Source: Bacteroidales bacterium (lineage in GTDB: Bacteria; Bacteroidota; Bacteroidia; Bacteroidales; Muribaculaceae). Taken from it: DNA of 33,434 bases. Every line of letters starts with the position of its first letter. The first letter of the stretch is position 1. A program made the position numbers and the translations under genes. Below are positions 4,954 through 33,311 of this stretch, piece after piece. The stretch is from positions 1-33,434 of the forward strand of contig JAUNFY010000027.1 in assembly GCA_030524805.1 (NCBI GenBank), given 5' to 3'. A model generated the notes under the pieces. It made no database searches. It was not told the origin of the DNA and worked only from the letters and a program-made list of their open reading frames with translations.

Positions 4954-4959
4954 TTGCAC

Positions 4960-9916: not shown

Positions 9917-9917
9917 A

Positions 9918-13715: not shown

Positions 13716-13747
13716 CAAATTTAATATTATTCCTGAAAATACACAAA
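13716..13747 (-). promoter_or_regulatory. Consensus Bacteroidota promoter for the PAS-cbiA-pduO-cobQ-cobD-cbiB unit
   Basis: On the minus strand TTTG (13747-13744) is followed after 20 bases by TAAATTTG (13723-13716), matching both elements of the TTTG / TAnnTTTG consensus. The predicted start near 13709 leaves a leader of about 55 bases, too short for a cobalamin riboswitch. This suggests the late genes can be expressed without the riboswitch-controlled upstream unit. Confidence 0.75.
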
Positions 13748-13751
13748 TAAA

Positions 13752-15548
13752 TCAGATGGTGAGGAAAATCTGCCCTGCATCCGTGATCAGCATCAATGTG
13801 AGGTCACCATCGGGATAACATTTCCTACACACCGAATAGCATAGCCTGAGGATATGAGGGAAGAACTTGCCGGCATCTTCCTCCTGCAGAAGGGTCCACA
13901 GCTCCCTCGCCATATTGATATTCCGTATCGCCTGCAGGGCAATGGCTCCACACCCGGCCTTCTCCGCTTCATTGGCGAGGAAGTCGCGGTTGACCGTCAC
14001 TTTATGGCTGTGGGTATCGGTATTGCCCTCAGCCAACTTCACCGCCTTGCCGAGCATGACGCCCAACGTAAGCCGCTTGATGCCAATATCCGAAGCCATT
14101 TTCAATGATTCGCCGATGGCATTGCCATAATGGATAAATGCCATCGAAGGAAGTTCTGGATAGCGCTCCCTGACCACTTTCTCACTCCTCGCTCCGGAAT
14201 TGAGAACTATCCTTTCACATCCGCACGACATCGCGACTTCCATCTCCCGCCCTATCGCTTCCATAAAAGCCTCATTGGAAAACGGCATGACGATTCCCGA
14301 CGTTCCTATGATTGAGATTCCACCGACTATGCCAATCCTTGCATTGAAAGTTTTCAAGGCAAGGGCCTCACCACCCGGCACGGAGAGAGTGACATCGCAA
14401 CCTGACGGATAAATGGCCAGCAGTTCTTCCCTCATCATCTGCCTCGGCACCGGATTTATAGCCGGCTCCCCTATCTCCAGGCCGGTGCCGGGAAGAGTGA
14501 CAGTGCCGATGCCCTCGCCGCCATAGAAATGCACATCATGATGATCGGCAAGCCTGACGTCAGCCTTCACCATACATCCGTCGGTGACATCCGGATCATC
14601 GCCCGCATCCTTGATCACGCTTGCCTCAGCCCGATCGGCGGAAATGACTCTGACCGAATGAATCTTCATACTCATTTCCTCTCCATCAGGAATAGCAAAC
14701 GATATATATCCGGAGTCTTCACCCTCGGTCAAGGCAAGCAACGCCGCTTTAGCCGCCGCCGTGGCACATGCTCCGGTGGTGTAGCCGCTTCTGAGCCGGA
14801 AGAATCCCGGCGCTGTCTTTTCGATCGCCTTTCTTAGTCCGTACTCTCCTGTGATCACAATAAAACCGGCCGGGAGTTTCGGACGACGCACCACGAATAC
14901 CTTCACACCTTTACCAAGGGCCGCCTCTACCTTTTCCTTAAAACCTCCTGATTCCCCGCTTTCTTTCGTTATTATAGCATCGGGCCGGATCTCATCCAGA
15001 AGCGTGCCGATATCGCCGTCTTTATCATAAAAGACCAGCCTGTCTTCGCGAAACCCGCTTTCAGCAGCCTTGGCGAGCGATTCATCCCTTTTCAAAATCC
15101 TGAAAAAGCACAAGTGTTCTTTCCAAAAACCTTTCAGTTCCGGAATTGTCTGCACTCCCGTCAATGCAAGCAGCCGACCGATTCCATGACTCCTGAGCCT
15201 TCCGACGGCGTCTTGATAATCATCACACCATATCAGCCGCCCGTCATGGACGGCATAGCGCCGCTCGTAACGTATCACAGGAATCCCCACTTCACGCGAC
15301 GCTTCCGCTATGGCAGAATGAAGACGCGATGCAAACGGATGAGCGGCATCCACGATCACCTTGACCGAATTCCGGCGGCAGAATCCGGAAATCTGCTCAC
15401 AATCCATCGCTCCCGACAATCTTACCGCATTGGGCGACTCTATCTGCTGAAGGTCGCCCTTTGTAGAATAGAAATATGGCTCGCCGGCCTTGTCGAGCGT
15501 TGCTACAGCCTTGCGTCCTTCAGTGGTGCCTCCAAACACTAATATCAT
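13752..15548 (-). CDS. cbiJD: CbiJ-CbiD fusion: cobalt-precorrin-6A reductase / cobalt-precorrin-5B C1-methyltransferase
   Basis: One 598-aa cytoplasmic protein carrying two steps of the anaerobic corrin pathway. Residues 1 to about 240 are the CbiJ/CobK reductase: ILVFGGTTEGRK at the start, DAAHPFA at 67-73 and ITKESGESGG near 193-202. From about 250 the CbiD methyltransferase begins with its hallmark RSGYTTGACA (253-262), followed by GGEGIGTVTLPGTGL and a glycine-rich GIVGGISIIGTSGIV. The C1-methyltransferase CbiD is specific to the cobalt-first route. The ATG overlaps the cbiGF stop (ATGA). It is the last gene before the PAS promoter; no terminator was found in the 97-base gap, so read-through into the PAS-cbiB genes is likely. 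Confidence 0.94.
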   Translation of the reverse strand: MILVFGGTTEGRKAVATLDKAGEPYFYSTKGDLQQIESPNAVRLSGAMDCEQISGFCRRNSVKVIVDAAHPFASRLHSAIAEASREVGIPVIRYERRYAVHDGRLIWCDDYQDAVGRLRSHGIGRLLALTGVQTIPELKGFWKEHLCFFRILKRDESLAKAAESGFREDRLVFYDKDGDIGTLLDEIRPDAIITKESGESGGFKEKVEAALGKGVKVFVVRRPKLPAGFIVITGEYGLRKAIEKTAPGFFRLRSGYTTGACATAAAKAALLALTEGEDSGYISFAIPDGEEMSMKIHSVRVISADRAEASVIKDAGDDPDVTDGCMVKADVRLADHHDVHFYGGEGIGTVTLPGTGLEIGEPAINPVPRQMMREELLAIYPSGCDVTLSVPGGEALALKTFNARIGIVGGISIIGTSGIVMPFSNEAFMEAIGREMEVAMSCGCERIVLNSGARSEKVVRERYPELPSMAFIHYGNAIGESLKMASDIGIKRLTLGVMLGKAVKLAEGNTDTHSHKVTVNRDFLANEAEKAGCGAIALQAIRNINMARELWTLLQEEDAGKFFPHILRLCYSVCRKCYPDGDLTLMLITDAGQIFLTI

Positions 15549-17323
15549 TTGCGGAAAAGGTGTTTGAAGTTGTCGTCATAAAGTTTCGACAAACCTTCCC
15601 GATTGTCGATGGCGTCACCTACCACGAGAAGGGTGGTGAGTGTAAGATTATTGTCGTGCACGATTCGGGCAAGGTCCTTCAGCTGCCCCCTGTATATCTT
15701 CTGCTCTTTCCATGTGAGTTTATAGCATGCCGCTACCGGAGTGTCGGGCGAATACTCCATGAGGAGCTCCTTCTGCACTTCATCGACTATAGCTGCACTG
15801 AGATATATGCACATGGTGCTTTGCGACCTGGCCAACAGGTGAAGCCGCTCTTTTTCAGGCATGGGAGTACGGCCCTCGCCCCTCGTAAGGATGATAGACT
15901 GCACTTTCTCAGGGATAGTGAACTGGGAGCGGAGTTCGGCAGCCGCGGCTTGGAAAGATGAAATTCCGGGGGTGATATGATACGACATTCCATAACGATC
16001 GAAAAACGCCATCTGCTCCTGTATGGCGCCATATATGCAGGGGTCGCCGGTGTGAAGGCGCACCACGAGCAAACCTTTATCGTAAAACTGCTTCATCAGT
16101 GCGAATTGCTCTTCAAGATTCATGCTTGCGCTGCTCCTTACCACGCATCCTTGTTTTGCATAATGCGTGAGTTCTTCCGGCACAAGACTGCCCGCGTAAA
16201 GGATGAGATCGGCTTCCTCCAGAAACCTTTTACCCCTGACAGAAACAAGTTCGGGATCTCCCGGCCCGGCTCCCACTATCTCAATATGCCCCTCGCGCAT
16301 GGCGCCGCGGTCTATGGCCACCGCAAAAGTGAAATCATTTTCTTCCGACAGTTTTCCTTTCTGCTTTTCCATGATGAGTCTTCCGCCATCGGCAGCCTCT
16401 ATGGCACAACTTTCAGACACTCCCCACACGCCGGTGACCTCTTTCACCTTTGCCGAGGCATTTGGAACCACCACATCTTTCAACTGATCGACGGAAAAGA
16501 TACAAGTTTCAGAAAGAGAGAATTGAGCAGCAAGATCCTTTACAAGCCGCTCATCTTTCTTCAATTCTATTGTTGCCACGGCTTTCAACGACAACGGACT
16601 GAGGTTGCATTCCATCATCTTGCGCCTTATGTAGTCGGCCACTCCATCAGGATTACAATCCTTTCTGCATCCGACTCCAAGATTCAAAACCTTAGGATGA
16701 TAACAAAGCAACTGTATGCCCGATGGCACATCATAAATATATGGAGTGACGGCAATTATCAATTTCAGGCCGGCATTGTCGTCCATGTCTTTCATAATCC
16801 TCACGTTGGAGGGTAGAGTGCGTTCCAGCTCCGCAGTACCACTGTCGCGTACATCGAGCAAAAGTCCGGTGCTTTCCCCGTTTACAAAACTGAATATCGC
16901 CCTGTTCATCTGCTGTTTCCCGGCATCGACCTCCCAGCCAAATCTTTGCCCGAGCGTGTCGAGCGCCCACATGCCGGAATTGTCGCTCTGAGTCGTGACA
17001 ACAGCCTCGGCGCCCAATATGCGTGCAATTCGCCTGCAAAGGTCATTGCCGCCTCCCACATGGCCGGAAAGTACCGATATGGCATACTTTCCCATCGAGT
17101 CGACACATATCACCGCGGGATCCTGATATTTGTCATGAATCAAAGGCATGACCGTGCGCACGCATATACCGAGCGCACCGACGAATATTATATTGCCTGC
17201 ACTCTTCAAGGCGCCGGGCGTCAGCTGCCTGCGGCCCATCACCTCGCAATCGTCCAACTCCGCTGCAATGACATTGGCCGTATTTTCTCCCTCGGGAGAT
17301 ACATATACTATCAGATTCATCAT
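15545..17323 (-). CDS. cbiGF: CbiG-CbiF fusion: cobalt-precorrin-5A hydrolase / cobalt-precorrin-4 C11-methyltransferase
   Basis: A 592-aa cytoplasmic protein. Residues 1 to about 335 are CbiG, which opens the ring-A lactone and releases acetaldehyde: VGALGICVR at 48-56, SGHVGGGND at 86-94, and the C-terminal CbiG domain around LNLGVGCRKDC (213-223). From about 346 the SAM-dependent C11-methyltransferase CbiF/CobM starts with IVGAGPGDPELV, followed by LYAGSLVP and VRLHTGDPCIYG. CbiG marks the anaerobic pathway. Two adjacent ATGs (17323 and 17320) are possible starts; 17323 gives a four-base overlap with cbiET. The gene order places C11 methylation and ring opening in one polypeptide, consecutive steps of the route. 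Confidence 0.95.
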   Translation of the reverse strand: MMNLIVYVSPEGENTANVIAAELDDCEVMGRRQLTPGALKSAGNIIFVGALGICVRTVMPLIHDKYQDPAVICVDSMGKYAISVLSGHVGGGNDLCRRIARILGAEAVVTTQSDNSGMWALDTLGQRFGWEVDAGKQQMNRAIFSFVNGESTGLLLDVRDSGTAELERTLPSNVRIMKDMDDNAGLKLIIAVTPYIYDVPSGIQLLCYHPKVLNLGVGCRKDCNPDGVADYIRRKMMECNLSPLSLKAVATIELKKDERLVKDLAAQFSLSETCIFSVDQLKDVVVPNASAKVKEVTGVWGVSESCAIEAADGGRLIMEKQKGKLSEENDFTFAVAIDRGAMREGHIEIVGAGPGDPELVSVRGKRFLEEADLILYAGSLVPEELTHYAKQGCVVRSSASMNLEEQFALMKQFYDKGLLVVRLHTGDPCIYGAIQEQMAFFDRYGMSYHITPGISSFQAAAAELRSQFTIPEKVQSIILTRGEGRTPMPEKERLHLLARSQSTMCIYLSAAIVDEVQKELLMEYSPDTPVAACYKLTWKEQKIYRGQLKDLARIVHDNNLTLTTLLVVGDAIDNREGLSKLYDDNFKHLFRK

Positions 17324-18504
17324 AGGGCTTTCAGTATGGTTATAGGATTATGCGCATCAAGCGCGATATGGTGCTCTTCCATTATTTTTTTCCCGATAGA
17401 CAGGACAGACTCCTTGAATATCGCGCAACTCTCGCTGCTGACAGAGTTGAAAACCATCACACACCCCGGCAACATCACCTCGTTCAAGCGTTGCACCATT
17501 TCTGTCAGTTTTCCTCCGTGGCCGCCTATAAACACAGCATCGGGACGCTGATAGCCGGTCAAATCCAAATCCATAAAATCGCTGATGGCATATTCAATGT
17601 CGGGCGCGCCGAATTTCCTCGAATTCAATTCCATCAGTTTTCTCGATTCATTCCTCTTCTCAAAGGCGATGATGTCGAGATGAGGAAATTGAAGCCGCGC
17701 CTCGATTGAAATGGACCCGGTGCAGAAGCCGATGTCCCACAGAGTCTTGCGTTGCGGCAGATCAAGCATTGCAAGCGACAGAAGCCTCACCGGCATCTTG
17801 GTGATCATGTTTCTTCGTCCACTCAAATGGACGAATTCCGATTCGGGAATACCAAAATAACGTTTCCTGTCCTCAAACCTCCGGAGAATCACGCAATTCG
17901 GATTTCGGAAAGAAAGGGCACACGCCTCTTCCGGCAGGTATACCGACACTTCCTCAGCCTCTTCATTTCCCAGACATTCCCCGATGGCCAGTTCATAATT
18001 ATCATATCCATAGGCCATCATTCTCTCGGCTATCTCATCCGGGCTCTTCGACTTATCGGTGAGAACACCAATCAGAGGATATCCTTTTATGAGCGCGTCA
18101 TCAAGATTTTTCCATGGCCTCCCCGTCAGCGACACACAAATCATGTCCTGATATGGCAGATTCATTCTATGAGCAAGCATCTGGAGGGAATTGAACGAGG
18201 GATACACTTCAATGTCGGCATCAGGAAAGACACGTTGCAAAGTGGTGGCAAAACCATAAAACAACGGATCTCCCGAAGCGAAAACCGTTATCTCGTCGTG
18301 CTTCTTGTATTGCTCGAAGACATCATCCAATGGCACAGTGATATCTATCCATCCGGCTCCATCAGGCAGACTATCCGACATGATCTCGCGATGCCTCTTT
18401 CCCCCCGAGAACTGTCTTGACTGCCTGATGATCTCCACCACATCTGGATGAAGATACTGCACCCTGCTGTCGGAAATACCTATGACCTTAAACTTCTTAC
18501 ACAT
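17320..18504 (-). CDS. cbiET: CbiE-CbiT (CobL) fusion: C5 and C15 methyltransferase / C12 decarboxylase
   Basis: A 394-aa protein acting on cobalt-precorrin-6B/7: methylation at C15 with decarboxylation of the C12 side chain, and methylation at C5. The N-terminal CbiE part (to about residue 195) has the tetrapyrrole methylase motif FASGDPLFYG (75-84). The C-terminal CbiT part has the SAM-binding motif DIGFCTGSISIEA starting at 257, and later FIGGHGG. The segment GFCTGS replaces the more common GxGTGS. The ATG at 18504 overlaps the end of cbiHC by eight bases. Equivalent to CobL of the aerobic pathway, but the neighbours indicate use in the anaerobic one. Confidence 0.94.
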   Translation of the reverse strand: MCKKFKVIGISDSRVQYLHPDVVEIIRQSRQFSGGKRHREIMSDSLPDGAGWIDITVPLDDVFEQYKKHDEITVFASGDPLFYGFATTLQRVFPDADIEVYPSFNSLQMLAHRMNLPYQDMICVSLTGRPWKNLDDALIKGYPLIGVLTDKSKSPDEIAERMMAYGYDNYELAIGECLGNEEAEEVSVYLPEEACALSFRNPNCVILRRFEDRKRYFGIPESEFVHLSGRRNMITKMPVRLLSLAMLDLPQRKTLWDIGFCTGSISIEARLQFPHLDIIAFEKRNESRKLMELNSRKFGAPDIEYAISDFMDLDLTGYQRPDAVFIGGHGGKLTEMVQRLNEVMLPGCVMVFNSVSSESCAIFKESVLSIGKKIMEEHHIALDAHNPITILKAL

Positions 18505-19897
18505 CTCTACCCGGTTTTAGATCCACTGCATCAGGCCAACAGAGAATGGAATTTACCAATGTCGCCGCAAGATTGCTTCCACCCTTGCGTCCCTCAACTA
18601 TAATCTTCGGGATATCTGTGAATGGCTTCACCATGTGCTTGCTCTCGCATACATGCACGAAGCCCACGGGAGCCGCCACAATTCCACAGGGATGAGCCTT
18701 TCCACGACGTATCAATTCGCTGAGCTCCATGAGGGCTGTCGGAGCGTTGCCAAAAACGAAAAAAGCATCGGGGTGTTGCTCCACGGCCTTCCGTATACCG
18801 GCCTGCGTGCGCGTTATTCCCTTTTCCTTAGCCATCAGCGCCACATCCGGATCGTTGAGATAGCACTTCACTTCAACCCCCAGTCTGTCAAGCGCCCCTT
18901 TCCTGATGCCGGAAGCCGCCATCGTCACATCAGTCACGATAGTGGATACGTTGCCTGAGGAAAGTTGAGTGTAGATCTTCTCCACAGCATCATCATCTAC
19001 ATTGACCACATCCTCCATTTCGAAATCGGCAGTGGTGTGAATGGCATGAAGCAAAGGCCACTTGCGCCCTATGGGCATATCGGGATTCCTCAGTTCCTTT
19101 TCTATGGTGAGGAAACTTTCTATCATTATCGACTGGCCGATTCCGGCCGATTCGTCAGCTTTGCCCCCATAGTAGCCACGGGGCGTTATGAATCTGCCTC
19201 CATATTCATAGCTCGCGCTGTTGCCGATAATGACGACTGTAAACATATCCACATCTTCCGGATCGAAGTTCTCAAGCGTGGTCACCACCATTTTCTCTCC
19301 ATCCCTTCCGGCCTGACGCACATAACCCACTACAGTCTGCGGGCTGCGCTCAGCGAGAAATATTTCTTTCAACCTGTAAAGCTGCCAGTATCTCGAATTG
19401 CTTTTGGGATTATAGACCGCGGTGACGAAGTCGGCGGCAGCGGCAGCCTTTATGCGGCGTTCGATCACGGCCCAGGGCGTCATCAGGTCGCTCAACGACA
19501 CAACGCAAAAATCATGTCCCACAGGAGCTCCGAGCAACGAAGCCGCTTTCTGAAACGCACTTATTCCGGGTATCACCTCGACGTCGGCATCGAGGCCACG
19601 CTCCCTCATCATCTCGTAGACAAGGGGTGCCATGCCATATATTCCGGAATCGCCGGAACTGATCACACATACATCTTCATCAGCCGACATCCTGTCGAGT
19701 GCCATCTCTATCCTGGAGCGTTCCTGCTTCATCCCATTCTGAATGATCTCAACATCCTCTCTCAGAAAACCTCTGACAAAGGGGATATAAACCTTATACC
19801 CCACCAGCACCTTGCATTTCTTCAATGCATCCACAGCACTCATGGTGAAGTCGCCCTCACCGCCCGGTCCGATTCCGACCACCGTTATCTTTCCCAT
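18497..19897 (-). CDS. cbiHC: CbiH-CbiC fusion: cobalt-factor III/precorrin-3B C17-methyltransferase / cobalt-precorrin-8 methylmutase
   Basis: A 466-aa protein. Residues 1 to about 245 are the tetrapyrrole methylase CbiH/CobJ, which methylates C17 and contracts the ring: VVGIGPGGEGDFT (6-18), ISSGDSGIYGMA (79-90), TAVYNPKSNSRYWQL near 159-173. From about 256 the CbiC/CobH methylmutase follows, moving the methyl from C11 to C12; its expected catalytic histidine is in LLHAIHTTAD (282-291), and later come TDVTMAASGI and VGFVHVCESK. The enzyme pair thus spans an early and a late step of ring synthesis. It starts three bases after the btuD stop. No C20 methyltransferase (CbiL/CobI), which should act just before CbiH, is present in the window. 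Confidence 0.94.
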   Translation of the reverse strand: MGKITVVGIGPGGEGDFTMSAVDALKKCKVLVGYKVYIPFVRGFLREDVEIIQNGMKQERSRIEMALDRMSADEDVCVISSGDSGIYGMAPLVYEMMRERGLDADVEVIPGISAFQKAASLLGAPVGHDFCVVSLSDLMTPWAVIERRIKAAAAADFVTAVYNPKSNSRYWQLYRLKEIFLAERSPQTVVGYVRQAGRDGEKMVVTTLENFDPEDVDMFTVVIIGNSASYEYGGRFITPRGYYGGKADESAGIGQSIMIESFLTIEKELRNPDMPIGRKWPLLHAIHTTADFEMEDVVNVDDDAVEKIYTQLSSGNVSTIVTDVTMAASGIRKGALDRLGVEVKCYLNDPDVALMAKEKGITRTQAGIRKAVEQHPDAFFVFGNAPTALMELSELIRRGKAHPCGIVAAPVGFVHVCESKHMVKPFTDIPKIIVEGRKGGSNLAATLVNSILCWPDAVDLKPGRDV

Positions 19898-19900
19898 AAC

Positions 19901-20884
19901 TTAAAGTATCGTTTTAAGAAGAGCCTCTATCGACCCATATTTCCGACCATTGAAGAAATAGCCGTTTTCATCCGACTGAATCATATCTTCGCATTCGATA
20001 TCCGTATCTGCCAATATGCCGTTGCGTGCAAAGGCTTTCTGCAGAAGCCTGTTCCTGACCGGATCTCCTTCAAGCCGAATCTTCCTTTCAAGCTTATTGT
20101 CGATGCGGAAAAGCCCTGATGCCAGATCAAACCTCACTCCTTCCTTTTCAAAATATTCGCTCATATAGCCCGCGAGTGCAAGGTCTTCAGGTGTACCGGT
20201 CTTCACTCCATGAGTCTTATCTATAAGCCACACCTTGTCGGCTATCTGCAACGCGAGTTCGAGGTCATGGGTCGAGAGAAAGACTGTCTTACGCTTTATT
20301 CTTGACAGATTCTGGAGCAGACGCAATATCTCCACCTTGCTCGGATAGTCGAGGAAGGCGGTGGGTTCATCAAGAAATATTATGGGCGTCTCCTGGGCGA
20401 GTGCCTTTGCAATCATCACCTTCTGACGCTCGCCGTCGCTGAGCGTCTCCACCATTCGGTCGCGAAGGTCTTCTATCCTTACAAGGGCTATCGCCTCCTC
20501 CACTATTTCCTTATCGCCCTGATTGAGATGCCCCCAGAATCCCGTGTAGGGGCTGCGCCCCATCGATATGAGCTCATAGACTGACATGTTGGTGACTGCA
20601 ATCCGCTCAGTGAGAACCACACCGATCATTTTTGCCAATTCCGAATCATTATAATCCTGAAGGTCCTTCCCCTCTATCATTATCTTTCCCGACAATGGCG
20701 GGAGGAAACCGGAAAGAGTCTTGAGCAAAGTTGACTTGCCCGCGCCATTCGGTCCGAGCAGACAGGTCAGTTCGCCGGAATATAACGAAGTGGTGACGCC
20801 CTCGGTCACGGCAGTCACCTTATGCTTGCCCGAATAACCGGTGGTGAGATTCTCCACCCTTATTGTTTCAGTCTTTTCTATCAT
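19901..20884 (-). CDS. btuD: ABC transporter ATPase, corrinoid/iron-siderophore type (BtuD-like)
   Basis: A 327-aa ATPase that would power import through the permease encoded upstream. Walker A GPNGAGKST at residues 44-52, signature LSDGERQ, Walker B IIFLDEP and the switch histidine in STHDLE are all intact. About 70 residues follow the nucleotide-binding domain (from roughly 255), longer than the roughly 250-aa Escherichia coli BtuD; such extensions are common in Bacteroidota FepC/HmuV/BtuD-type proteins. The ATG overlaps the permease stop (ATGA). The family cannot separate cobalamin, cobinamide, heme and ferric-siderophore transporters by sequence alone; the riboswitch and cobalamin neighbours favour a corrinoid or a tetrapyrrole precursor. 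Confidence 0.88.
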   Translation of the reverse strand: MIEKTETIRVENLTTGYSGKHKVTAVTEGVTTSLYSGELTCLLGPNGAGKSTLLKTLSGFLPPLSGKIMIEGKDLQDYNDSELAKMIGVVLTERIAVTNMSVYELISMGRSPYTGFWGHLNQGDKEIVEEAIALVRIEDLRDRMVETLSDGERQKVMIAKALAQETPIIFLDEPTAFLDYPSKVEILRLLQNLSRIKRKTVFLSTHDLELALQIADKVWLIDKTHGVKTGTPEDLALAGYMSEYFEKEGVRFDLASGLFRIDNKLERKIRLEGDPVRNRLLQKAFARNGILADTDIECEDMIQSDENGYFFNGRKYGSIEALLKTIL

Positions 20885-26000: not shown

Positions 26001-26950
26001 GTCATCGCACCGTCAATTTCAGGAACTACAATCCTTGCATTGAGTGTGCCGGCGCTCATAGGACGCGCCACATCCAGCCAGTCTTCCCTGTTCTGTATCA
26101 GCGGGAATGGCATGAAGAGCGGTATTTCCTTCTCGTAGCACCAGTTGATCAGGCTGTCGTTGCCCAGCCTTCCCATCGGAAGGTACACTACCGCCACCGG
26201 ATTAATGTCTTTGATGAGTTGCGCCCTTCTGTCGCCTCGTGCGCTCATGGGATAGACATTATATCCCGCCCCTGTCATTCTCGCAATGAGGGTGTCGATA
26301 TGGGCTCTGTTGCCCTCCACCGGGAATGTCAGGCCGGAGATGAACGCAACGTTTCCGCCCCCTTCCTGATATATGTCTTTTTCCATGAGATAATCAGTGA
26401 GTTGGGCTGCCGAGTCAAAATATACTCCGTCCTCAAGATGAAAAAGCATGTCGGATGGGAGCTCGACCGGTTCGCAGTAGTCTTTCGATCCTACGAGACG
26501 GGGTGTGGATATGGCCCTGACATATTTCAGAAGATTGACATAGTTGGCCTTGCAAGGGTTTCTGAAATACTTGCCCAGTGTCTCAATCTGTATGGAATCC
26601 AGATTATGGTTTATCACGAAGCTGAAATTTCGCAAGGCATTGGTGTAGATCTTCACTCCTTCCGAAGCGGCCTTATCGATCTCTTTCATCTGTATTGAAT
26701 CAAGAAACAGACCTCGCCCATACATCAAGACGGCATCATACTCTGAAAAATCATGAGCATCTTCCATTCCCGTGCATCTGACTTTTATGTTGCGGCTCCC
26801 GTTGTTGAGAGTAATCTCTGCAACTTGTGCAGGCAAGGGATTGACGATTAATATTCTTGTCGGTCGAAACCAATGGCAGAAAACAAGATAAGCAACGACA
26901 GCCGTCAGGATGCATGAGGCGATAATAAAGATGGTCCGTTTCCTATTCAT
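23066..26950 (-). CDS. cobN: Membrane-anchored CobN/HmuS-like chelatase, catalytic body in the periplasm
   Basis: A 1294-aa protein of the CobN / magnesium-chelatase H superfamily. CobN blocks are visible: LIHFGTHGNLEFTPGK with His539 and His543, then FWAGEFISSQGATLAQAF and a LGRPRVNVMIQVSG segment around residues 855-930. Unlike cytoplasmic CobN it has a membrane helix at residues 6-25 preceded by NRKR and another near 1268-1288 followed by KKRRNRE. By the positive-inside rule both ends are cytoplasmic and the body is periplasmic. This topology recalls Bacteroidota HmuS, linked to heme metal removal. The AAA partners CobS/CobT (BchI/BchD type) are absent from the window. It starts 24 bases after cbiK and overlaps btuF by four. 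Cobalt insertion, metal removal from a porphyrinoid, or both are possible. Confidence 0.88.
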   Translation of the reverse strand: MNRKRTIFIIASCILTAVVAYLVFCHWFRPTRILIVNPLPAQVAEITLNNGSRNIKVRCTGMEDAHDFSEYDAVLMYGRGLFLDSIQMKEIDKAASEGVKIYTNALRNFSFVINHNLDSIQIETLGKYFRNPCKANYVNLLKYVRAISTPRLVGSKDYCEPVELPSDMLFHLEDGVYFDSAAQLTDYLMEKDIYQEGGGNVAFISGLTFPVEGNRAHIDTLIARMTGAGYNVYPMSARGDRRAQLIKDINPVAVVYLPMGRLGNDSLINWCYEKEIPLFMPFPLIQNREDWLDVARPMSAGTLNARIVVPEIDGAMTPLCISTQDPDKNGFLVYNPVAERINAFMEQFTRFMALKTKDNGQKKIAIGYFKSPGKDALLASGMEVVPSLYNFLTRLKHDGYNLDGLPNTLAAFKKDIMTRGSVMGDYAPAAQSRFMDECSPVWIHKDDYEKWAEEVLLPEKYKEVEDRYGKAPGNLLARGDSLAVACLQYGNVLLFPQPRPALEDDDFKLVHGVDVAPPHSYLAPYLYIQKKFDADALIHFGTHGNLEFTPGKNAGLSQADWAEVLIGNRPHFYFYTTSNVGEAVIAKRRSHAVLVTHLTPPYIETGMRARYSSLLNDIHGAIADATKNDINLKKEIIACGIHSDLKLDSVADIPYSAEDLEMVDEFLEELANEKITGAYYVMGEPYSDKEMENTLVAIAADKFAYSAAKEDFENRKISEKQLHDHTFIRHHYHDDAESMVRAAARGGTVNGDAMAQIAEYKKLLQISAGSEIDAMAGALSGRPVRPAPGGDPVLNPNVLPMGRNMFSINAEATPSVKAWNDGVALADRTLDTYRKQHGEYPRKVTYTFWAGEFISSQGATLAQAFRMLGVEPVRDEQGRVMDLKLTPSEELGRPRVNVMIQVSGQLRDIAGSRLKMLTDAVKLASEAVDDVYPNYVAEGTLRQEKSLVDMGIPPKDARSLSTARVFGPVNNGYGSGMLSYTENSGKWDDRRELADGFVNNMCAIYGDTINWGKANPDAFKAAIENTDVIVQPRQSNTWGPVSLDHVYEYTGGLSLVSTMINGKEPDAVMADYRNPYLPKMQDAKQAVAIEMRSSLLNPNFIRERMEGDAGTAQMFGEMFRNIFGWSVMRPSALNENTYDELYDTYIADTHGLGIKDYFDSVNPAAFQEMTATMLEAARKGYWNADREKLEMTARLHAEITRKNGAPCTEFVCANDKLQSFIASNLDQQSKAGYLADISKATGSAKDGTVMKRSNSSPKEKLIDKNFVRSLVVILTLAAIILFVLTLIKKRRNRE

Positions 26951-26974
26951 CAGAAAAATCGTGAAAATCAGCTT

Positions 26975-27874
26975 TTATTCATTAAAGTTTTTGAGAAAGG
27001 CAGCTTTCCTTTCTACAGATGAAAGCGGCTTTTCCTTCAAGCCCTGACGGATATGGTCGATGAATATGTCCTGTATCTCAGGAATCTGTCCGAGGCCTTC
27101 GATGACGGCGGACGTCTTGAAGCCTTCGTTTTCAAGCTGTTCGCGCCATTCGCCATCGATATCGTTGCGGGCATGGTCGCCGGCCACAAACATGAAGGGC
27201 ACCAGCGTCACCGTCTTTACTTTGGTTGCCTTCAGGGCAGCGAGCGTAGTGTTGAAGTCGGGATAACCTTCCACCGTGGAGACATGGAATGCCGGATTGC
27301 CCTGTGCCTTGAACATATAATCCATCTGCGAGTAGATTGCGTTTGCCGGAGTGGATGTGCCGTGCCCTACAAGCACAACGGCGGAGTACTTACCGGCTTT
27401 TCCGGCGTATCTTGCCGATAAGATTTTCTCTACCTCAAGGCAGTCTTCGATGGAATAAAGCAGAGGATTTCCTATTCTGATTTCCTTGAAGAAGGGGGCC
27501 ATGTATTCAGCTTCAGCCCGTAGCGCCCGGGCCTCGATACCATCAATGATATTTGTGCTCTGGATAAACACATGGGTGTAACCGTCGGCCGCAAGTTTGA
27601 GAAGAGCCTGACGGGGAGTCGGTTTTTCAACTCCGCGTTTGGCAAGACGTGAAATGATGATTCTTGAGGTGTAAGCCTCCACCATTGTCATCTCCGGAAA
27701 TTGCGATGCCGCTTTCAGGTTGATTGCATCGATAGTGGCTGCACGCGTGTCGTCGAAAGTAGTGCCGAAATGCACCATGAGCAGAGCTGCCTTGTCGCCC
27801 TCTTTCAGTGTGAAGGCCTGCGAGTTGATGATAATTCCCACAAGCATGATTACTAAAAATGATATTCTCTTCAT
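26975..27874 (-). CDS. cbiK: Secreted (periplasmic) sirohydrochlorin cobaltochelatase, CbiK type
   Basis: A 299-aa class II chelatase that inserts Co2+ into sirohydrochlorin without ATP. The metal-binding residues of the family are present: His171 in LVGHGTST, Glu202 in TVEGYPD and His234 in VAGDHARND. The first 20 residues (MKRIS, then a hydrophobic run ending NSQA) form a signal peptide, and the mature protein begins near FTLKEGDKAALLMVHFGT. Export makes it like the periplasmic CbiKp of Desulfovibrio rather than the cytoplasmic Salmonella enzyme. The ATG overlaps the PepSY gene stop (ATGA). If the substrate is made in the cytoplasm, a periplasmic chelatase would need its export; an imported tetrapyrrole is an alternative. 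Confidence 0.93.
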   Translation of the reverse strand: MKRISFLVIMLVGIIINSQAFTLKEGDKAALLMVHFGTTFDDTRAATIDAINLKAASQFPEMTMVEAYTSRIIISRLAKRGVEKPTPRQALLKLAADGYTHVFIQSTNIIDGIEARALRAEAEYMAPFFKEIRIGNPLLYSIEDCLEVEKILSARYAGKAGKYSAVVLVGHGTSTPANAIYSQMDYMFKAQGNPAFHVSTVEGYPDFNTTLAALKATKVKTVTLVPFMFVAGDHARNDIDGEWREQLENEGFKTSAVIEGLGQIPEIQDIFIDHIRQGLKEKPLSSVERKAAFLKNFNE

Positions 27875-29382
27875 ATTTTCTTATGTTTGGATTTTTCTTT
27901 GGAGAATGTGATTGCAAGCCCGGTCATGATCACGAGCACACATCCGGCTGCCAGAATCCAGAGGCTCATGTGCCTGAGCGTCGGGTGCATCACAAAGTAT
28001 TTGATATCAAGATAATGAGCGGCTGAAAACAGCCATTTCTTCGCCATGCGGTTTTCATTGAGATACTTCACATATCCGTCGGTCGGACAGATATATAGTC
28101 TCGAGCCGTCTTCGTTGTCGATCTTGATTTTCCATACGGGAAGTGGCTGCTGCCCTTTTGCCGAAAGATAATACTCGTCATAGTCTTCCATATAGGTCAT
28201 GTCGAAGCTTACCTCATCGCCGAAATATCTTCTTACAGCTTTTTCAATCTCCTCTTTTGATATTTCGAGAGGTTGCACCCGGTCTTGTCGCGAGGCGTCT
28301 ATCAGTATTTCCCTGTCGCCATCAACAACGATGTAGACAGGTTGCTTTCCGAAATGTTGCCATCTGATTGACTTCACGTCATGATACTCATCGAAGATTT
28401 TTCTATAGTCAAGTTTGTAGTCGCCAAGTTGAAGCGGTTTCTTTCCCCAGAGTCGGGAGGCACTTACTGTGTAGTCGCCGTCGTAAGGTATCAACCATTT
28501 GGGGATACGTTGGGTGGATAGAGCGCCGCTGATGCCCCATGCCACAAGGAAGACGCCGAAGATGAGTCCGGCTACATGGTGAAGGCGCCACATACGTTTT
28601 TTGAAAGGTGAGGAGAATTTATGATGTTTTCTTTTGTTTTTTAACAGGTAGTAAATGCCCATATACATTCCGGATAAGGCAGCTGCAAGACAAAGCAGGC
28701 CGCCGGCGAGCATCACGTTTTTCCATCGCCCGGTGTTGGTGCGGATACCGGGGAAATAAAACTTATGAGGGATAGCTCCCAACCATGCCCATATCCGGGC
28801 GGAGCGGGTGGTTTTCTGCACCACCTCGCCGTTTTTTTGAGAGATGAAGACTTCCGTCGCTTCAGGATCATCAAACCTATATCTCAATATAGGCAATGAT
28901 TTTTCATACCGGTCATACAGGATCCATTGCTGACGCCGGCAAAGAGTGTCGACACTTGCGATCGCGGCCGATCCGGCCCAAAGGCAAGCTATGCTGTCGA
29001 TTTGAGGGGATGTAATTTTATGCTGCACAGTGAGCGAATCGCCGGTCAGGACAAACAACTGCGAATCGCGCGACTTTTTGTCCATGGCATTCTCTTTTCT
29101 TCCCGACGACGTGCCGATGGTCCAGACAGTGGCACCGAGATTGCGGCTCACCGAGAGGTTTCTTATTTCGGTGGAGTCGGACAGTCCGGGCAGTTGAGCC
29201 ACGGCCGGAAGAGTTTCAGCAGGAATGCGTTGCATATAGCCATAATTATCTTCCTCGGTAACTTTTGGATATTTATGATAAAGGAGAACAATTCCGGTGA
29301 TGAACCACATCACGAAGAATAGAGCTATCACAAGAGCTGAAACCTTATGTATCTTTTGGATGGTTTTGTTGAAGATATTCAT
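27871..29382 (-). CDS. PepSY-domain inner-membrane protein (XusC-like, possible reductase)
   Basis: A 503-aa protein of the PepSY-associated transmembrane family. Membrane helices lie near residues 14-36, 223-247, 268-290 and 472-494, with two large periplasmic portions (about 40-215 and 292-470). Histidines at helix edges, His12 in IHKVSA, His206 in IPHKF and His268/His269 in RLHHVAG, could bind heme b. Such proteins accompany TonB receptors and surface lipoproteins in Bacteroidota; XusC of Bacteroides thetaiotaomicron is the named example. They are thought to reduce the metal of an imported complex, but this is not proven by the sequence. Its gene lies 95 bases after the lipoprotein gene, across a strong hairpin, and overlaps cbiK by four bases. 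In a cobalamin context, reduction of Co3+ or Fe3+ before metal exchange is an attractive guess. Confidence 0.85.
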   Translation of the reverse strand: MNIFNKTIQKIHKVSALVIALFFVMWFITGIVLLYHKYPKVTEEDNYGYMQRIPAETLPAVAQLPGLSDSTEIRNLSVSRNLGATVWTIGTSSGRKENAMDKKSRDSQLFVLTGDSLTVQHKITSPQIDSIACLWAGSAAIASVDTLCRRQQWILYDRYEKSLPILRYRFDDPEATEVFISQKNGEVVQKTTRSARIWAWLGAIPHKFYFPGIRTNTGRWKNVMLAGGLLCLAAALSGMYMGIYYLLKNKRKHHKFSSPFKKRMWRLHHVAGLIFGVFLVAWGISGALSTQRIPKWLIPYDGDYTVSASRLWGKKPLQLGDYKLDYRKIFDEYHDVKSIRWQHFGKQPVYIVVDGDREILIDASRQDRVQPLEISKEEIEKAVRRYFGDEVSFDMTYMEDYDEYYLSAKGQQPLPVWKIKIDNEDGSRLYICPTDGYVKYLNENRMAKKWLFSAAHYLDIKYFVMHPTLRHMSLWILAAGCVLVIMTGLAITFSKEKSKHKKI

Positions 29383-29402
29383 GGCAAGAGATTTGGAATG
29401 AT

Positions 29403-29426
29403 CCGGAGTGGCTCACGCCACTCCGG
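29403..29426. other. Strong intercistronic hairpin between lipoprotein and PepSY genes
   Basis: ccggagtggc (29403-29412) and gccactccgg (29417-29426) form a perfect 10-bp stem with a 4-base loop, extended by three more pairs across a bulge. No T run follows on the minus strand, so it is more likely a processing or stabilising element that separates expression of the surface components from the downstream genes than a full terminator. Confidence 0.6.
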
Positions 29427-29477
29427 TATCCATCAGAAAAATACTTGCTGCTCAGGCAGCTGTTGAATATGTCGCTT

Positions 29478-30752
29478 TCATTTCTTCTCGTTTTCCACTA
29501 CACGTATCTGCTCGAAATAGACGCCGGCCTTGAGTTCGACGCCTTTCGAAGTCTCGCGTGACTTTGCATCGTAGATATAGATGACGGGGTTGACATCTTT
29601 GGCATCCACACCGATGTAAGCCTTGTGGTTGACGAAACACATGCGGGAAGAAAAACGTCCGCTGCTGAATGCAAGGGGTTCGCCATTATATTTCACGGGA
29701 GTAGATGTCTTTGTGTCAAGATTGATGACGGCATAGTAATGGCTGAAGTCGTCGATACCTGTTCCTTTCGAGTCGTCGCGTGCGTATGCCATAACCTCAT
29801 TACCTCCGATATAGAGGATTGAGATAAGTTTGCCGCCTGCGGTGAATCCGTCGTAGCTTTCATCAAATTTGGTGGAGTTTGCGGGTATTTTGAGCAGGTG
29901 GCTGTGCTCGTTGCCGCCGGCATCTTTAGAGAAGCATGCTATGTAGAGATTATTGCTGCTGTCAATCACCGTTGTGGTCTGCAGGAGTTCTCCGTATGCC
30001 GTGCCTACCATCTCGCAGTCGATGAAACAGGGGGTATCGCTCTCCACTGCCATTGTAGCCGGATCTATGACAGCTGTCATCATCGGGGTCATGCGTGAGC
30101 CGCGCTTGCCGCCCGATTTGCTGTAGTAGAAATAGAATAGCTTGTTGTCCGATTTGCGGTAAGTCAGAATGCCGGAAGTGGTGAAAAGTTCGGCACCTTC
30201 CGCAAGTTTCACATCAAGTGTGCCCTCCGATATTATTGTCATGTTGTCGGCGTTGAGCTTGGTCCATACCACCTGATTTCCGTCACCGTTGGATGCCACA
30301 ATCACCAATGTGTGGTCGTCGATCCAGGCATGGGTGTATTTTCGCGCGGCATAAGTATTTGTTTCGAAACGACGTTCCGCCACTACCTTTATCTTATTGT
30401 TCTCGATAGTGTATTTGGAGAAGCGGTCGCCCGCAACCGGCACCTGATAATAGTAGGCACCCTTGAGGATGGTTTCAAGAGTCATTATCGAGTTTACTTC
30501 TGTACCCTTACCCTCGAAAGAGATCTCTGGCTGGTCGGCTTCGAGCGAGCCGACACTTCTCACGAGAGTCTGCACGTCGCGTCCCATGCCACCATGACGG
30601 TCGAGAGCCACCCAGAGGTCGAAGTGATAGTCGGAGAGCAGGGTCGGGTCATCGTCGTTGCCGTTGGGATCATCTTCATCCGAGCAACCGGTCATGGACA
30701 TTGACACGAACAATGCCATGAATGCCAAAAGCAGAAATTTAATCTTCTTCAT
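29478..30752 (-). CDS. Surface lipoprotein, DUF4374/XusB-like, probable beta-propeller
   Basis: A 424-aa lipoprotein. The signal peptide ends at SMTGC, with Cys23 lipidated, followed at once by SDEDDPNGNDDDP, a strong Bacteroidota lipoprotein-export signal that places it on the cell surface. The mature part is made of repeating beta-strand units (for example YTHAWIDDHTLVIVASNGDG and ILTYRKSDNKLFYFYY), consistent with a propeller. Length, lipobox and position between a TonB receptor and a PepSY protein match the DUF4374 family, of which XusB binds ferric siderophores in Bacteroides; the family call is from memory and context. BtuG, a surface propeller that binds cobalamin in Bacteroides, is a functional alternative. 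It lies 44 bases after the receptor gene with no promoter seen. Its likely role is to hand a ligand to the receptor. Confidence 0.75.
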   Translation of the reverse strand: MKKIKFLLLAFMALFVSMSMTGCSDEDDPNGNDDDPTLLSDYHFDLWVALDRHGGMGRDVQTLVRSVGSLEADQPEISFEGKGTEVNSIMTLETILKGAYYYQVPVAGDRFSKYTIENNKIKVVAERRFETNTYAARKYTHAWIDDHTLVIVASNGDGNQVVWTKLNADNMTIISEGTLDVKLAEGAELFTTSGILTYRKSDNKLFYFYYSKSGGKRGSRMTPMMTAVIDPATMAVESDTPCFIDCEMVGTAYGELLQTTTVIDSSNNLYIACFSKDAGGNEHSHLLKIPANSTKFDESYDGFTAGGKLISILYIGGNEVMAYARDDSKGTGIDDFSHYYAVINLDTKTSTPVKYNGEPLAFSSGRFSSRMCFVNHKAYIGVDAKDVNPVIYIYDAKSRETSKGVELKAGVYFEQIRVVENEKK

Positions 30753-30796
30753 TTGCTTGTTTTAATTTATATGATTAAGTTAAAGTTGAATTCATG

Positions 30797-32962
30797 TCAA
30801 TGCAGATAAATGCGGAATTTGGCGTAGAACGCACGTCCGGGTTTCTGGAGCATATAGTTGTCGTAGGCGAGACAATCGAATATGTTATCGCATTGCAACG
30901 AAATATTATACCGGTCGCTCAGCCATGAATAAGAGATGGAAAGGGATGTGATGTTCTGCGTAGGTATCTTAGCTTTTGAAGAAGCACTTCCGTAGGCTTC
31001 CCAATTAAGATAATACCAGTTGATCCATTCATGGTCGGCTTCTATCCTTAGTTTGTCGCTATATCTTGTGATATTGCTGAAAGTGTATGAAACCTCGGCA
31101 TTGGCAAACAACCAGGGTTTGTTTGGCACCCGGTTTTTATATGTGGCGGAAGGATTGCCATCGGTCTTGTATTTCCTCATGTTGCGGGCATCATTCCAAC
31201 TGCCGTTGACCTTCACGCTAAGTTTACGGTCCCAGACATAGCCCAAATCGAAATCCATTCCTTTTATCTTGATTGCCGGCTCGTTGAGGTATTGCATATA
31301 CCCTTCCCTCTCCGACACATTGGCCCTTATATAATTTTGGACATGACGTATGAATCCGTTCACTTCGTAAGTGAACACGTTGACATCCCCGGCATAAAGC
31401 GTGCCGATGATTCCGAGGTTATAGTTATTGCTTTCCTCAGGTTTAAGTGCGAGATTTGCCAGCACTGTCGTCCCGTTGCCAAGCAACTCACGCGATAGCG
31501 GAAGCCGCACGCTGTGTTCGTAGGATGCTTTGAATGATATTTCCTGAAGCAGCGTGAATCGCGAGCCGACGCCGGCCCCACAGTAGCTTTTAGTCGCGTC
31601 AGGATCTATTTTGTCGGTACCAACTATCGTGGCATGCTCGTTTTGCCGGATGGAAGTGGAATTGATGTAGTCTTTTACAAAAAACATATTTTGCCACCTC
31701 TGCTCAAACAACGCATGGCTATAGGCCAGCGATAGAATATGCTTTGTGATTATATCATTAGTAGGCTCAAACTGCCTGTCGGCCTTGTCCGTTTGTCGGT
31801 TGCCACGCCTGTTGAGCATATACGCGAAAGCGATGTTGTGGTTTTCGAGAAATTCATAGTCAAGTCCAGCATTGAACACCGTAAGAGGACGATTATATAC
31901 CCTCCATGTCCTCGCACCGTTTCTCATCTCATTGCCGGAAGCGGGCATCCACGATCCATCCCATGAGTATTTCCGATATGCCGTATCTACTGTCTCACTG
32001 TGATCCCACGTATGGCTGAAATTGAATCGCGCACCGATTTTGCCGAAGGTCTTTGCATAACGGGTGCCGACATACCAGGCATGGGCACGACGCTGCGCCA
32101 TTCCATACACCTTGTTCTGCATGGCGCCCGTCTGTATTTCCTTGTCGATTTTTGTATATCCGGCATTGACATAGAAAGCATCAGCCCATGCCACTCCGGA
32201 GACTCCGGCCTCTATTCCGGTATTGATCGAGAGATAATCGTCATGAAATCTTTTCAAGTCGGTGAAAATGAATTTATCCTGCTCTTCACTCCAGATTTCA
32301 ACGCCTTTCATCTTATAGTCGTTTCTCGACGATGATATTTCAAAAGAGGGACGGATAGCTACGGCTGTCTTGGGAATAAACCATTGAGCGGCTACGTCGG
32401 CAGAATGGGTGTGAAACGATCCGAAGCCGTAAGAAGCATCAAGATAATTCTCCCGCTTCTTTTTCGTGACGATGTTTACCACGCCGCCCAATGCATCTGA
32501 ACTCAAATGAATCGGCACAACACCTTTGTAAAGTTCCACCCTATCCACCAAGTTGAGAGGGATATTGTCGAGATTCACCTGGCTTCCCCTTGAGTCGAGC
32601 GGAACGCCATCGATGAAGTATCTTATGGAATTGCCTGACAGCCCGTTGATGGATAGATCAAGATCCGAACCGGCGCCTCCTTCGCGACGCACTTTCACAC
32701 CGGCACTTCTATTCACCAGCGAATTGAGATTGGTCATTCGATTGACATCGGTCTTGATTTCGACCGCATTCACGTTCAGGGCACCCTCCCTCAGTTTCCT
32801 TCCATCGCTTTTGCCCACTACCGTGACTGCATCAAGATTAAAGTATATGGAGTCATGTCCGTCACTGCTGACAGAAGACACGACGGGATTATCAGAAAAA
32901 GCCTCTACCGAGGACAAAGTCATTAATATGACAATGATTGTGGAAATTAACCTCGTTTCCAT
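30797..32962 (-). CDS. btuB: TonB-dependent outer-membrane receptor (BtuB/XusA-like)
   Basis: A 721-aa outer-membrane transporter. A signal peptide (METRLISTIIVILMTLSSVE) is followed by a TonB box-like DAVTVVGK, a plug domain (about residues 45-165, with NRSAGVKVRREGGAGSDL, RYFIDGVPLDSRG and LGGVVNIVTKK) and a beta-barrel to the end. There is no N-terminal carboxypeptidase-like extension, so it is not a SusC-type glycan porin. The chain ends in FRIYLH rather than the usual terminal aromatic residue. The ATG at 32962 is chosen for the signal peptide; the upstream in-frame TTG at 33007 lies inside the leader stem. It is the first gene after the cobalamin riboswitch, which favours a corrinoid or related tetrapyrrole as substrate. 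A metallophore is the main alternative. Confidence 0.9.
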   Translation of the reverse strand: METRLISTIIVILMTLSSVEAFSDNPVVSSVSSDGHDSIYFNLDAVTVVGKSDGRKLREGALNVNAVEIKTDVNRMTNLNSLVNRSAGVKVRREGGAGSDLDLSINGLSGNSIRYFIDGVPLDSRGSQVNLDNIPLNLVDRVELYKGVVPIHLSSDALGGVVNIVTKKKRENYLDASYGFGSFHTHSADVAAQWFIPKTAVAIRPSFEISSSRNDYKMKGVEIWSEEQDKFIFTDLKRFHDDYLSINTGIEAGVSGVAWADAFYVNAGYTKIDKEIQTGAMQNKVYGMAQRRAHAWYVGTRYAKTFGKIGARFNFSHTWDHSETVDTAYRKYSWDGSWMPASGNEMRNGARTWRVYNRPLTVFNAGLDYEFLENHNIAFAYMLNRRGNRQTDKADRQFEPTNDIITKHILSLAYSHALFEQRWQNMFFVKDYINSTSIRQNEHATIVGTDKIDPDATKSYCGAGVGSRFTLLQEISFKASYEHSVRLPLSRELLGNGTTVLANLALKPEESNNYNLGIIGTLYAGDVNVFTYEVNGFIRHVQNYIRANVSEREGYMQYLNEPAIKIKGMDFDLGYVWDRKLSVKVNGSWNDARNMRKYKTDGNPSATYKNRVPNKPWLFANAEVSYTFSNITRYSDKLRIEADHEWINWYYLNWEAYGSASSKAKIPTQNITSLSISYSWLSDRYNISLQCDNIFDCLAYDNYMLQKPGRAFYAKFRIYLH

Positions 32963-32970
32963 TTCATCAA

Positions 32971-33011
32971 TTGATTGCGGGCACAATAAGACACAACAAA
33001 TACGCAATCAA
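32971..33011 (-). promoter_or_regulatory. Leader stem-loop next to the btuB start, candidate expression platform
   Basis: The arms 33011-33003 and 32979-32971 pair perfectly over 9 bp (TTGATTGCG with CGCAATCAA), enclosing 23 bases. The 3' arm ends eight bases before the ATG at 32962, where a ribosome would bind. A smaller stem (CCACAA/TTGTGG, 33047-33027) lies just upstream. Translational control by this stem is inference. Confidence 0.45.
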
Positions 33012-33106
33012 CCGGAACCATGGACACCACAAGACAGAAAATTGTGGCTGCGAGGCTGGTCGATGTATATTTTGCTGTTTTTATTCCCGAAAACTACAAA
33101 ATTTAT

Positions 33107-33270
33107 GTTGCTCTGGCAGGTCTTCTGACTTATCCTCTTGCCGGATTGCCTTCCCATGGATATTCCACCACAGTGGCACGATTAATCCGGCAAGTTTTGT
33201 GTAGGACTCACAGCAGCGGGTCTGTCCGGGATTTTCACCCGATTCCCTTTTCATCGCATGAGCGAAACCA
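33107..33270 (-). promoter_or_regulatory. Cobalamin riboswitch
   Basis: The minus strand carries the conserved class in order: AAAAGGGAATCGGGTGAAAA, then GACAGACCCGCTGCTGTGA with GTCC, the B12-box core GCCACTG at 33177-33171, CCATGGGAAGGC, and the 3' block AAGTCAGAAGACCTGCC at 33131-33115. Flanking GTT-TC-GCTC and GAGCAAC can close the P1 stem. Cobalamin binding normally represses downstream genes; here it precedes the TonB receptor and, by gene overlaps and short gaps, eleven more genes down to cbiJD. The leader from the predicted start to the btuB ATG is about 310 bases. Confidence 0.96.
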
Positions 33271-33280
33271 AAACGTGATG

Positions 33281-33311
33281 CAAAGTTAATAAAAAAAATG
33301 ATACCTGCAAA
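33281..33311 (-). promoter_or_regulatory. Consensus promoter of the riboswitch-controlled unit
   Basis: TTTG (33311-33308), 19 bases, then TAACTTTG (33288-33281) on the minus strand match both elements of the Bacteroidota consensus exactly. The transcript would start near 33275, immediately before the riboswitch. Confidence 0.85.

Follow-up and report, generated by a model that had tools for sequence, protein, structure and literature searches.

In 2000 Roper reportedly called Porphyromonas gingivalis an "enigma" and predicted that it salvages a precursor. Precursor salvagers were predicted, and dependence on 5-aminolevulinic acid (ALA) verified, by Shelton et al. in 2018 (PMC6461909). The salvager types distinguished in PMC8123684 are those of ALA, porphobilinogen, hydroxymethylbilane, uroporphyrinogen III and precorrin-2, and a pathway-variant table in the same paper includes Bacteroides fragilis, P. 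gingivalis and Parabacteroides species. The locus described here lies on a contig of 33,434 bases (C124) from a Muribaculaceae bacterium known as a metagenome-assembled genome, analysed whole and called the window below; the assembly measures 2.91 Mb in 128 contigs and is 95.5% complete. It would resemble the tetrapyrrole precursor salvagers of PMC6461909, since corrin-ring genes are retained while, of the early tetrapyrrole genes, the searches for HemC and CobA found none. Unlike them, it carries a candidate uptake system (PMC6461909 nowhere uses the word TonB), and CbiL is not found either, which would place its entry point after the five types named in PMC8123684. We estimate at roughly 55% the probability that this B12-repressed unit imports an early corrin precursor and feeds it to the ring enzymes encoded behind the uptake genes.

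Parts of the unit recall described systems. XusABC, whose proteins bind metal-siderophores (PMC13142918), likewise consists of an adjacent TonB receptor, XusB-like lipoprotein and PepSY protein; unlike XusABC, the window unit has a B12 riboswitch ahead, a far-diverged lipoprotein outside DUF4374, and chelatases and ring genes behind. The Iht system of P. gingivalis comprises, as does the window, a receptor, a CbiK-like exported protein, a binding protein, a permease and an ATPase (PMC10913741). It is assigned to heme or iron, whereas the window set precedes corrin-ring genes under a B12 riboswitch; production of IhtB is reported not to be regulated by PgFur (PMC10913741). In Desulfovibrio a B12 element controls cbiK-cbiL and btuCDF (PMC545781). 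The window shares B12 control over such genes, but the Desulfovibrio regulon keeps CbiL with CbiK, and no CobN-like protein is mentioned in that paper. Read along the minus strand, the window unit has the following order:

33281..33311, minus strand: Bacteroides-type promoter, TTTG-N19-TAACTTTG (pattern match)
33098..33287, minus strand: cobalamin riboswitch aptamer (RF00174, 104.8 bits, E 1.9e-25)
30797..33007, minus strand: TonB-dependent receptor with a Plug domain (best NCBIfam relative the siderophore receptor MxcH, below cut-off)
29478..30752, minus strand: XusB-like lipoprotein (Cys23 with acidic residues after it; XusB profile match)
27871..29382, minus strand: PepSY-TM inner-membrane protein in XusC-like position (PF03929, 38 bits)
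26975..27874, minus strand: secreted CbiK-type cobaltochelatase (PF06180, 246 bits; signal-peptide-like start)
23066..26950, minus strand: CobN/HmuS-like chelatase or dechelatase (by eye, a hydrophobic segment at either end)
21912..23069, minus strand: BtuF-like substrate-binding lipoprotein (family match)
20881..21915, minus strand: BtuC-like permease (family match)
19901..20884, minus strand: BtuD-like ATPase (family match)
18497..19897, minus strand: CbiH-CbiC fusion (TIGR01466 over cut-off; PF02570)
17320..18504, minus strand: CbiE-CbiT fusion (TIGR02467 and TIGR02469 over cut-off)
15545..17323, minus strand: CbiG-CbiF fusion (TIGR01465 over cut-off)
13752..15548, minus strand: CbiJ-CbiD fusion (TIGR00312 over cut-off; CbiJ PF02571)
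13716..13747, minus strand: second Bacteroides-type promoter match, ahead of PAS-CbiA-PduO-CbiP-CobC-CbiB genes

A first-pass annotation had described a promoter, a cobalamin riboswitch and then twelve same-strand genes of these families in this order, which the open reading frames and family searches bear out, RF00174 lying directly upstream on the same strand. It had also described the genes as mostly overlapping by ATGA; a 4-base ATGA-type overlap is present at 6 of the 11 junctions, the other five being spaced by 44, 95, 24, 3 and -8 bases. The pattern TTTG-N18..22-TANNTTTG, which we take to be the Bacteroides-type promoter consensus, has two minus-strand matches and no plus-strand match in the window, against a Markov-model expectation of 0.12 per strand. 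Since the second match sits just past the twelfth gene, the boundaries of the unit as first drawn are also those of the promoter matches. A weak terminator-like stem stands between the lipoprotein and PepSY genes (29460-29447); the terminator scan gave 20 such sites in the window versus 16.8 (standard deviation 4.6) in shuffles. Judged by its layout, the run of twelve genes is likely to form a single predicted transcript.

Four tetrapyrrole methylases (TP-methylases) were found in the genome, namely CbiH, CbiF, CbiE and RsmI. HemC, CobA and CbiL, which together would mark a de novo cobamide producer, were not found, so that CbiK has no known endogenous sirohydrochlorin and CbiH no known source of cobalt-factor III; HemA, HemL, HemB and HemD were not searched, here or in the genus. 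A survey of 111 genomes of the genus contained 20 that are CbiD-positive, with completeness of 59 to 99%, and among these HemC, CobA and CbiL were each found in 0/20. Their TP-methylases comprise the ring enzymes and, besides, RsmI or a paralogue resembling it: 18 of the 18 single extra matches are closest to RsmI (67-87%). L003 is RsmI by TIGR00096 over cut-off. Odd matches in G075 and G125 were considered as CbiL or CobA and rejected, their nearest reference being RsmI at about 30%. One genome (G108) yields only RsmI because its contig starts near CbiJD, and another (G034) carries two ring-gene sets (L041 and L040), the CbiP match of L040 falling in two overlapping pieces. A dedicated CbiL model gave nothing over cut-off in 61 genomes and, in the window genome, only CbiH/CbiF cross-matches at 40 bits. 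These searches are able to find upstream genes, since a control genome from another family (G051) yielded HemC, CobA (over cut-off), a precorrin-2 dehydrogenase-type protein, CbiL (157 bits, slightly below the cut-off of 163), CbiM and a class II chelatase with no signal peptide and a below-cut-off CfbA/CbiX-type match. An assembly gap behind the missing CbiL, CobA and HemC was rejected because all 20 genus genomes agree.

These results support the coupling of import to biosynthesis that the first-pass annotation had put forward, as the ring enzymes occur without detected HemC, CobA or CbiL both in this genome and in its CbiD-positive congeners; the endogenous chelatase substrate that it had named as a refuting case did not emerge from the HemC, CobA and CbiL searches. 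A route of the cell's own to sirohydrochlorin or factor III, by-passing HemC, CobA and CbiL and leaving the secreted chelatases to act on an exported substrate, is very unlikely. The TP-methylase and HemC searches are blind to non-homologous enzymes, the unsearched HemA, HemL, HemB and HemD leave room for it, and Roper reportedly left a novel precorrin-2 route open; such a route would nevertheless have to replace three unrelated steps and would leave the receptor unexplained, and inspection of operons turned up no candidate enzyme.

The secreted CbiK aligns to Salmonella CbiK, to the Desulfovibrio vulgaris chelatase (PDB 2xvx) and to P. gingivalis FetB (9b86), two of these three alignments having been inspected. 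Its His171 and His234 occupy the positions of the catalytic pair of Salmonella CbiK, His145 and His207 (PMC7689651). A CbiK scan of genome contigs returned 80 loci, with relatives labelled Muribaculum, Muribaculaceae, Porphyromonadaceae and some Bacteroides or Alistipes. His171, His234 and Glu114 are invariant in 79/79 rows (the window and 78 of the 80 loci), and a signal-like start is present in 77 of them, the exceptions being a motif miss with a hydrophobic start present (L058) and a mis-set start (L109). With PF06180 over cut-off and both histidine equivalents in place the protein classes as a putative cobaltochelatase, the NCBIfam equivalog NF047852 remaining below cut-off (199.7 of 400 bits). 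It is the only CbiK/CbiX in its genome. CbiKP of D. vulgaris is extracytoplasmic.

The best solved relative of the CobN-like protein is the heme dechelatase HmuS (1092 bits), in which Met-79 and His-254 dock heme, a Met-rich insertion is present, and His-538, His-1209 and Glu-1212 are catalytic (PMC12583661). Compared with HmuYRSTUV (PMC12583661, PMC10434189), the window shares an anchored CobN-like protein with equivalents of the three catalytic residues; unlike Hmu, its operon has no HmuY, and the protein carries Arg79 for Met-79, Met259 for His-254 and a 37-residue linker for the Met-rich insertion. The same holds throughout a sample of 17 CbiK-linked copies, of which 7 belong to the genus and 10 come from named loci: Met-79 is replaced by Arg and His-254 by Met in 17/17, the insertion is missing in 17/17 (26-41 residues versus 145-178), and the His-1209 and Glu-1212 equivalents are retained in all. 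The His-538 equivalent is also retained in 17/17, a count in which only 7 copies are a test because the 10 named-locus copies were selected by a motif holding it. The Hmu likeness suggested in the first-pass annotation thus stands for the relation to HmuS and falls for the heme-docking residues and the insertion. The natural reading of the sequence is that of an HmuS relative handling another tetrapyrrole, and an Arg at the Met-79 position would suit an isobacteriochlorin with eight carboxylates. Identification as a true CobN was rejected, the closest structure being HmuS; no search for CobS/CobT subunits was made. Such CobN-like proteins are already known from work on BtuS: PMC6460266 cites a BtuS family of CobN-like proteins (Rodionov 2003) and tests B. 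fragilis BtuS1 and BtuS2 in heme-iron use. In several relatives MotA/ExbB, DUF2149 and a 166-residue membrane protein stand behind CobN, as in HmuTUV; the window operon is without these. Elsewhere in the own genome, C69 holds a B12-controlled Hmu-like set (L014:4094-11664) made of a cobalamin riboswitch, a TonB receptor, HmuY and a CobN-like paralogue in which the Met-rich insertion is present and both HmuS docking residues are absent.

Heme or iron acquisition in the manner of Porphyromonas Iht/Hmu, with CbiK and the CobN-like protein stripping iron from heme, would agree with the resemblance of CbiK to FetB (9b86), with the closeness of the CobN-like protein to HmuS and with the published composition of Iht (receptor, CbiK-like lipoprotein and ATP-binding cassette (ABC) importer; PMC10913741). 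We nevertheless regard it as quite unlikely, given the control by a B12 riboswitch, the linkage to ring genes, the loss of the docking residues in every sampled copy and the availability, in the own genome, of another paralogue (C83) that has every HmuS feature.

At the surface, a TTG at 33007 is the listed start of the receptor, but the ATG at 32965 is likelier (signal-peptide-like, by eye). A profile built from 17 relatives of the lipoprotein had XusB (9hqe) as its sole PDB match (E 1.7e-9; E 2.6e-4 with a narrower profile), while a phmmer search of the PDB with the single sequence gave nothing useful. The lipoprotein matches no Pfam family over cut-off, DUF4374 is absent from the families matched by the 17 members, and NCBIfam was likewise unhelpful. 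The Xus-like capture proposed in the first-pass annotation is therefore retained as a relation to XusB by profile, beside a TonB receptor and a PepSY protein, without its DUF4374 assignment.

The window genome also has a separate, ordinary-looking B12 uptake locus (C105, L017) with a riboswitch, a receptor, a DUF5074 lipoprotein, BtuF and BtuC. Its copies share 50% (BtuC) and 33% (BtuF) identity with those of the window, as against 66-91% to the window BtuC for BtuC from other Bacteroidales loci that hold CbiK or ring genes. A locus for finished B12 exists apart from the window unit, whose uptake genes would, in the other half of the refuting case named in the first-pass annotation, serve finished cobalamin only. 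Ordinary uptake, with finished or late corrinoids as the cargo of receptor, lipoprotein and BtuFCD and with nothing but the riboswitch in common with the ring genes, seems unlikely, although the BtuF, BtuC and BtuD families, the shared B12 control and the pairing of BtuB-type receptors with surface lipoproteins in other Bacteroides B12 loci (PMC10404256, PMC6143338) all fit it: beyond the separate locus and its divergence, it would leave a conserved secreted CbiK, a CobN-like protein and selected ring genes substrate-less. Another riboswitch set of the same genome (C59, L016:8862-12211) comprises a cobalamin riboswitch, a citrate/sulfate-symporter-type transporter and a weakly cobalamin-independent-methionine-synthase-like protein; our guess is that under B12 scarcity it may serve to export organic acids and to make methionine without B12.

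Neither the own genome nor any of the 10 Bacteroides, Mediterranea and Parabacteroides genomes tested yielded the cobalt importer CbiM, and Xus proteins bind metal-siderophores (PMC13142918), so that the module might import cobalt chelates or cobalt-tetrapyrroles for the metal only. This is very unlikely, as it does not supply the missing ring and CbiM is present in 14 of the 20 genus genomes. For the latter reason the absence of CbiM was also set aside as weak support for extracytoplasmic cobalt insertion.

Conservation of gene order, for which the first-pass annotation had proposed a survey, was examined in the CbiK loci. Within 3.5 kb of CbiK and on its strand, a TonB receptor is found in 63 of the 71 loci having at least 3 kb upstream. 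Of the 60 loci having at least 9 kb downstream, 42 contain ring genes, which in 38 share the strand; CobN comes after CbiK in 49/80. A cobalamin riboswitch was found in each of the 21 loci tested (of 80); in 20 of these it precedes the module and shares its strand, L090 having minus-strand ones only. The ring genes are under purifying selection in relatives, the ratio of nonsynonymous to synonymous substitution rates (dN/dS) being 0.07-0.15 in four pairs of CbiL-less relatives; that of CbiK, CobN, BtuF and the lipoprotein is 0.01-0.11, some dS being near saturation, that of BtuC 0.25 in one pair with very few changes (dS 0.015), and that of PepSY 0.29 in one saturated comparison.

Genomes of named loci were searched for the same pathway genes in 38 of the 40 chosen (L107 and L123 were left out), TP-methylase matches being listed down to about 38 bits; CbiL elsewhere scores over 100 bits, with one fragment at 68. 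HemC was found in 1/38, as a HemC-CobA-HemD fusion in Bacteroides neonati (G155, L145:296-2305; L108), and CobA-like proteins in 3/38 (B. neonati, B. ihuae and UBA1317). In B. ihuae (L142; below cut-off, 160.7 of 185 bits) and UBA1317 (L143) the CobA-like methyltransferase occurs with no HemC found. CbiF is present in 36/38, judged by match size and range, and CbiL in 21/38; the CbiL of L141 is over cut-off. CbiL is not among the matches listed in 15 CbiF-positive named genomes. This brings to 34 the number of distinct genomes that have ring genes but yielded no CbiL (20 + 15 - 1, as G172 appears to duplicate G118). In a CbiHC tree of 45 rows (L058 gave no match and L066 a fragment only), the CbiL-less rows form one well-supported group of 20, mostly Muribaculaceae-type, and 5 others, Prevotellaceae-type where named, with two changes in CbiL state in all. 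A Parabacteroides metagenome-assembled genome has three in-frame stops inside a CbiH-type match (G164:C475:23524-24144).

Several of these observations count against import of a precursor coupled to ring synthesis. The window BtuFCD resemble cobalamin importers, and cobalt need not be inserted outside because CbiM-type importers occur in the genus, in 14/20 genomes. No adjacent receptor is present in 8/71 loci and no ring genes in 18/60; L037, L046 and L047 are without CobN, L037 also without CbiK in the stretch examined. A riboswitch-led CbiK module occurs in 2/38 genomes without detected CbiF (L128 in G166, L059 in G171), which, provided those assemblies are complete, argues against strict coupling. 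Finally, most window genes are saturated in the comparison with the nearest relative, and the dN/dS figures do not include the window's own ring genes.

Precursor scavenging with periplasmic cobalt insertion still appears the simplest account, because one riboswitch-led unit joins receptor, lipoprotein, chelatases, importer and ring enzymes and no upstream genes were found. From these we infer every step of transport and of chemistry, the sequence of the steps and the identity of the substrate. Excretion of factor III is known from cobalt-starved bacteria. The XusB-like lipoprotein and the TonB receptor would capture a carboxylate-rich isobacteriochlorin shed by neighbours: factor III, already methylated at C20, in CbiL-less lineages such as this one, and sirohydrochlorin in CbiL-bearing ones. 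In the periplasm the PepSY protein and the HmuS-like CobN might then reduce and strip off a wrong metal, if any, secreted CbiK would insert cobalt, and BtuFCD would import the cobalt complex. Ring contraction could proceed from CbiH onward, CbiA-P-B and CobU-S-T-C finishing the cobamide. The tetrapyrrole or metal-complex cargo of the first-pass annotation is narrowed in this way by the missing CbiL, its transport and metallation being putative. Among the putative substrates factor III is the weakest part, and we hold it tentatively. The whole path from surface to ring, with factor III or another C20-methylated isobacteriochlorin captured, demetallated and cobaltated in the periplasm, imported and entering at CbiH, is likewise conceivable rather than probable, and so, with the odds somewhat against it, is a further, sixth class of B12-precursor auxotroph, as yet unnamed, whose sirohydrochlorin version would occur in Bacteroides and Parabacteroides and perhaps in P. 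gingivalis.

The distinct mode of corrinoid acquisition claimed at first is not wholly new, as precursor salvage was predicted earlier (PMC6461909); what seems new is the candidate machinery for uptake and an entry point without CbiL. A literature search, with subscription papers largely outside it, brought up no title dealing with how sirohydrochlorin, precorrin-2 or factor III is taken up, which is weak evidence of novelty, and the excerpts of PMC12654859 and PMC6974653 have no bearing on precursor uptake. Many gut Bacteroidales with corrin-ring genes are easily counted as B12 makers, and in the genomes tested here the precursor steps were almost always not found. If the proposal is true, such bacteria would rely on other microbes for a half-made ring, and B12 exchange in the gut would include intermediates beside finished cobamides. 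The P. gingivalis enigma of 2000, a 25-year-old question as to how bacteria of this kind make B12, would then become testable with a named gene set. A cofactor would receive its metal outside the inner membrane, and the HmuS/CobN superfamily would gain a new function; reliable annotation is still out of reach for the majority of its members in bacteria and archaea (PMC12583661).

Some relatives carry additional genes between the importer and the ring genes. In L034 (8110-9171) and similar relatives a cofactor-independent phosphoglycerate-mutase-like gene, for which the window has no counterpart, stands between BtuD and CbiHC; we guess that it encodes a kinase for the aminopropanol linker. L035 (G102; 7945-11516) has, at the BtuD position between BtuC and CbiHC, a large gene that by eye is restriction-modification-like and a 265-residue gene. 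A second receptor and PepSY pair occurs between BtuD and CbiHC in L047 (8746-11043) and L048, so that some species would have several uptake modules per unit.

The rest of the window carries the later steps of the pathway:

13316-13654: PAS-domain gene of 112 residues, first of the second promoter's run
11959..13245, minus strand: CbiA (NF002204 over cut-off)
11390..11998, minus strand: PduO-type adenosyltransferase (TIGR00636 over cut-off)
9918..11426, minus strand: CbiP (NF001989 over cut-off)
8897..9916, minus strand: threonine-phosphate decarboxylase-like aminotransferase, CobC/CobD-like (TIGR01140, 261.1 bits, below the cut-off of 290.55)
7983..8900, minus strand: CbiB (TIGR00380 over cut-off)
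4954..7888, plus strand: CobU, CobT, CobS and a histidine phosphatase (nucleotide-loop genes)

At the contig end (33345-33434) a partial tRNA is followed by what by eye is a hairpin with a T-run, which sets the tRNA apart from the operon promoter.

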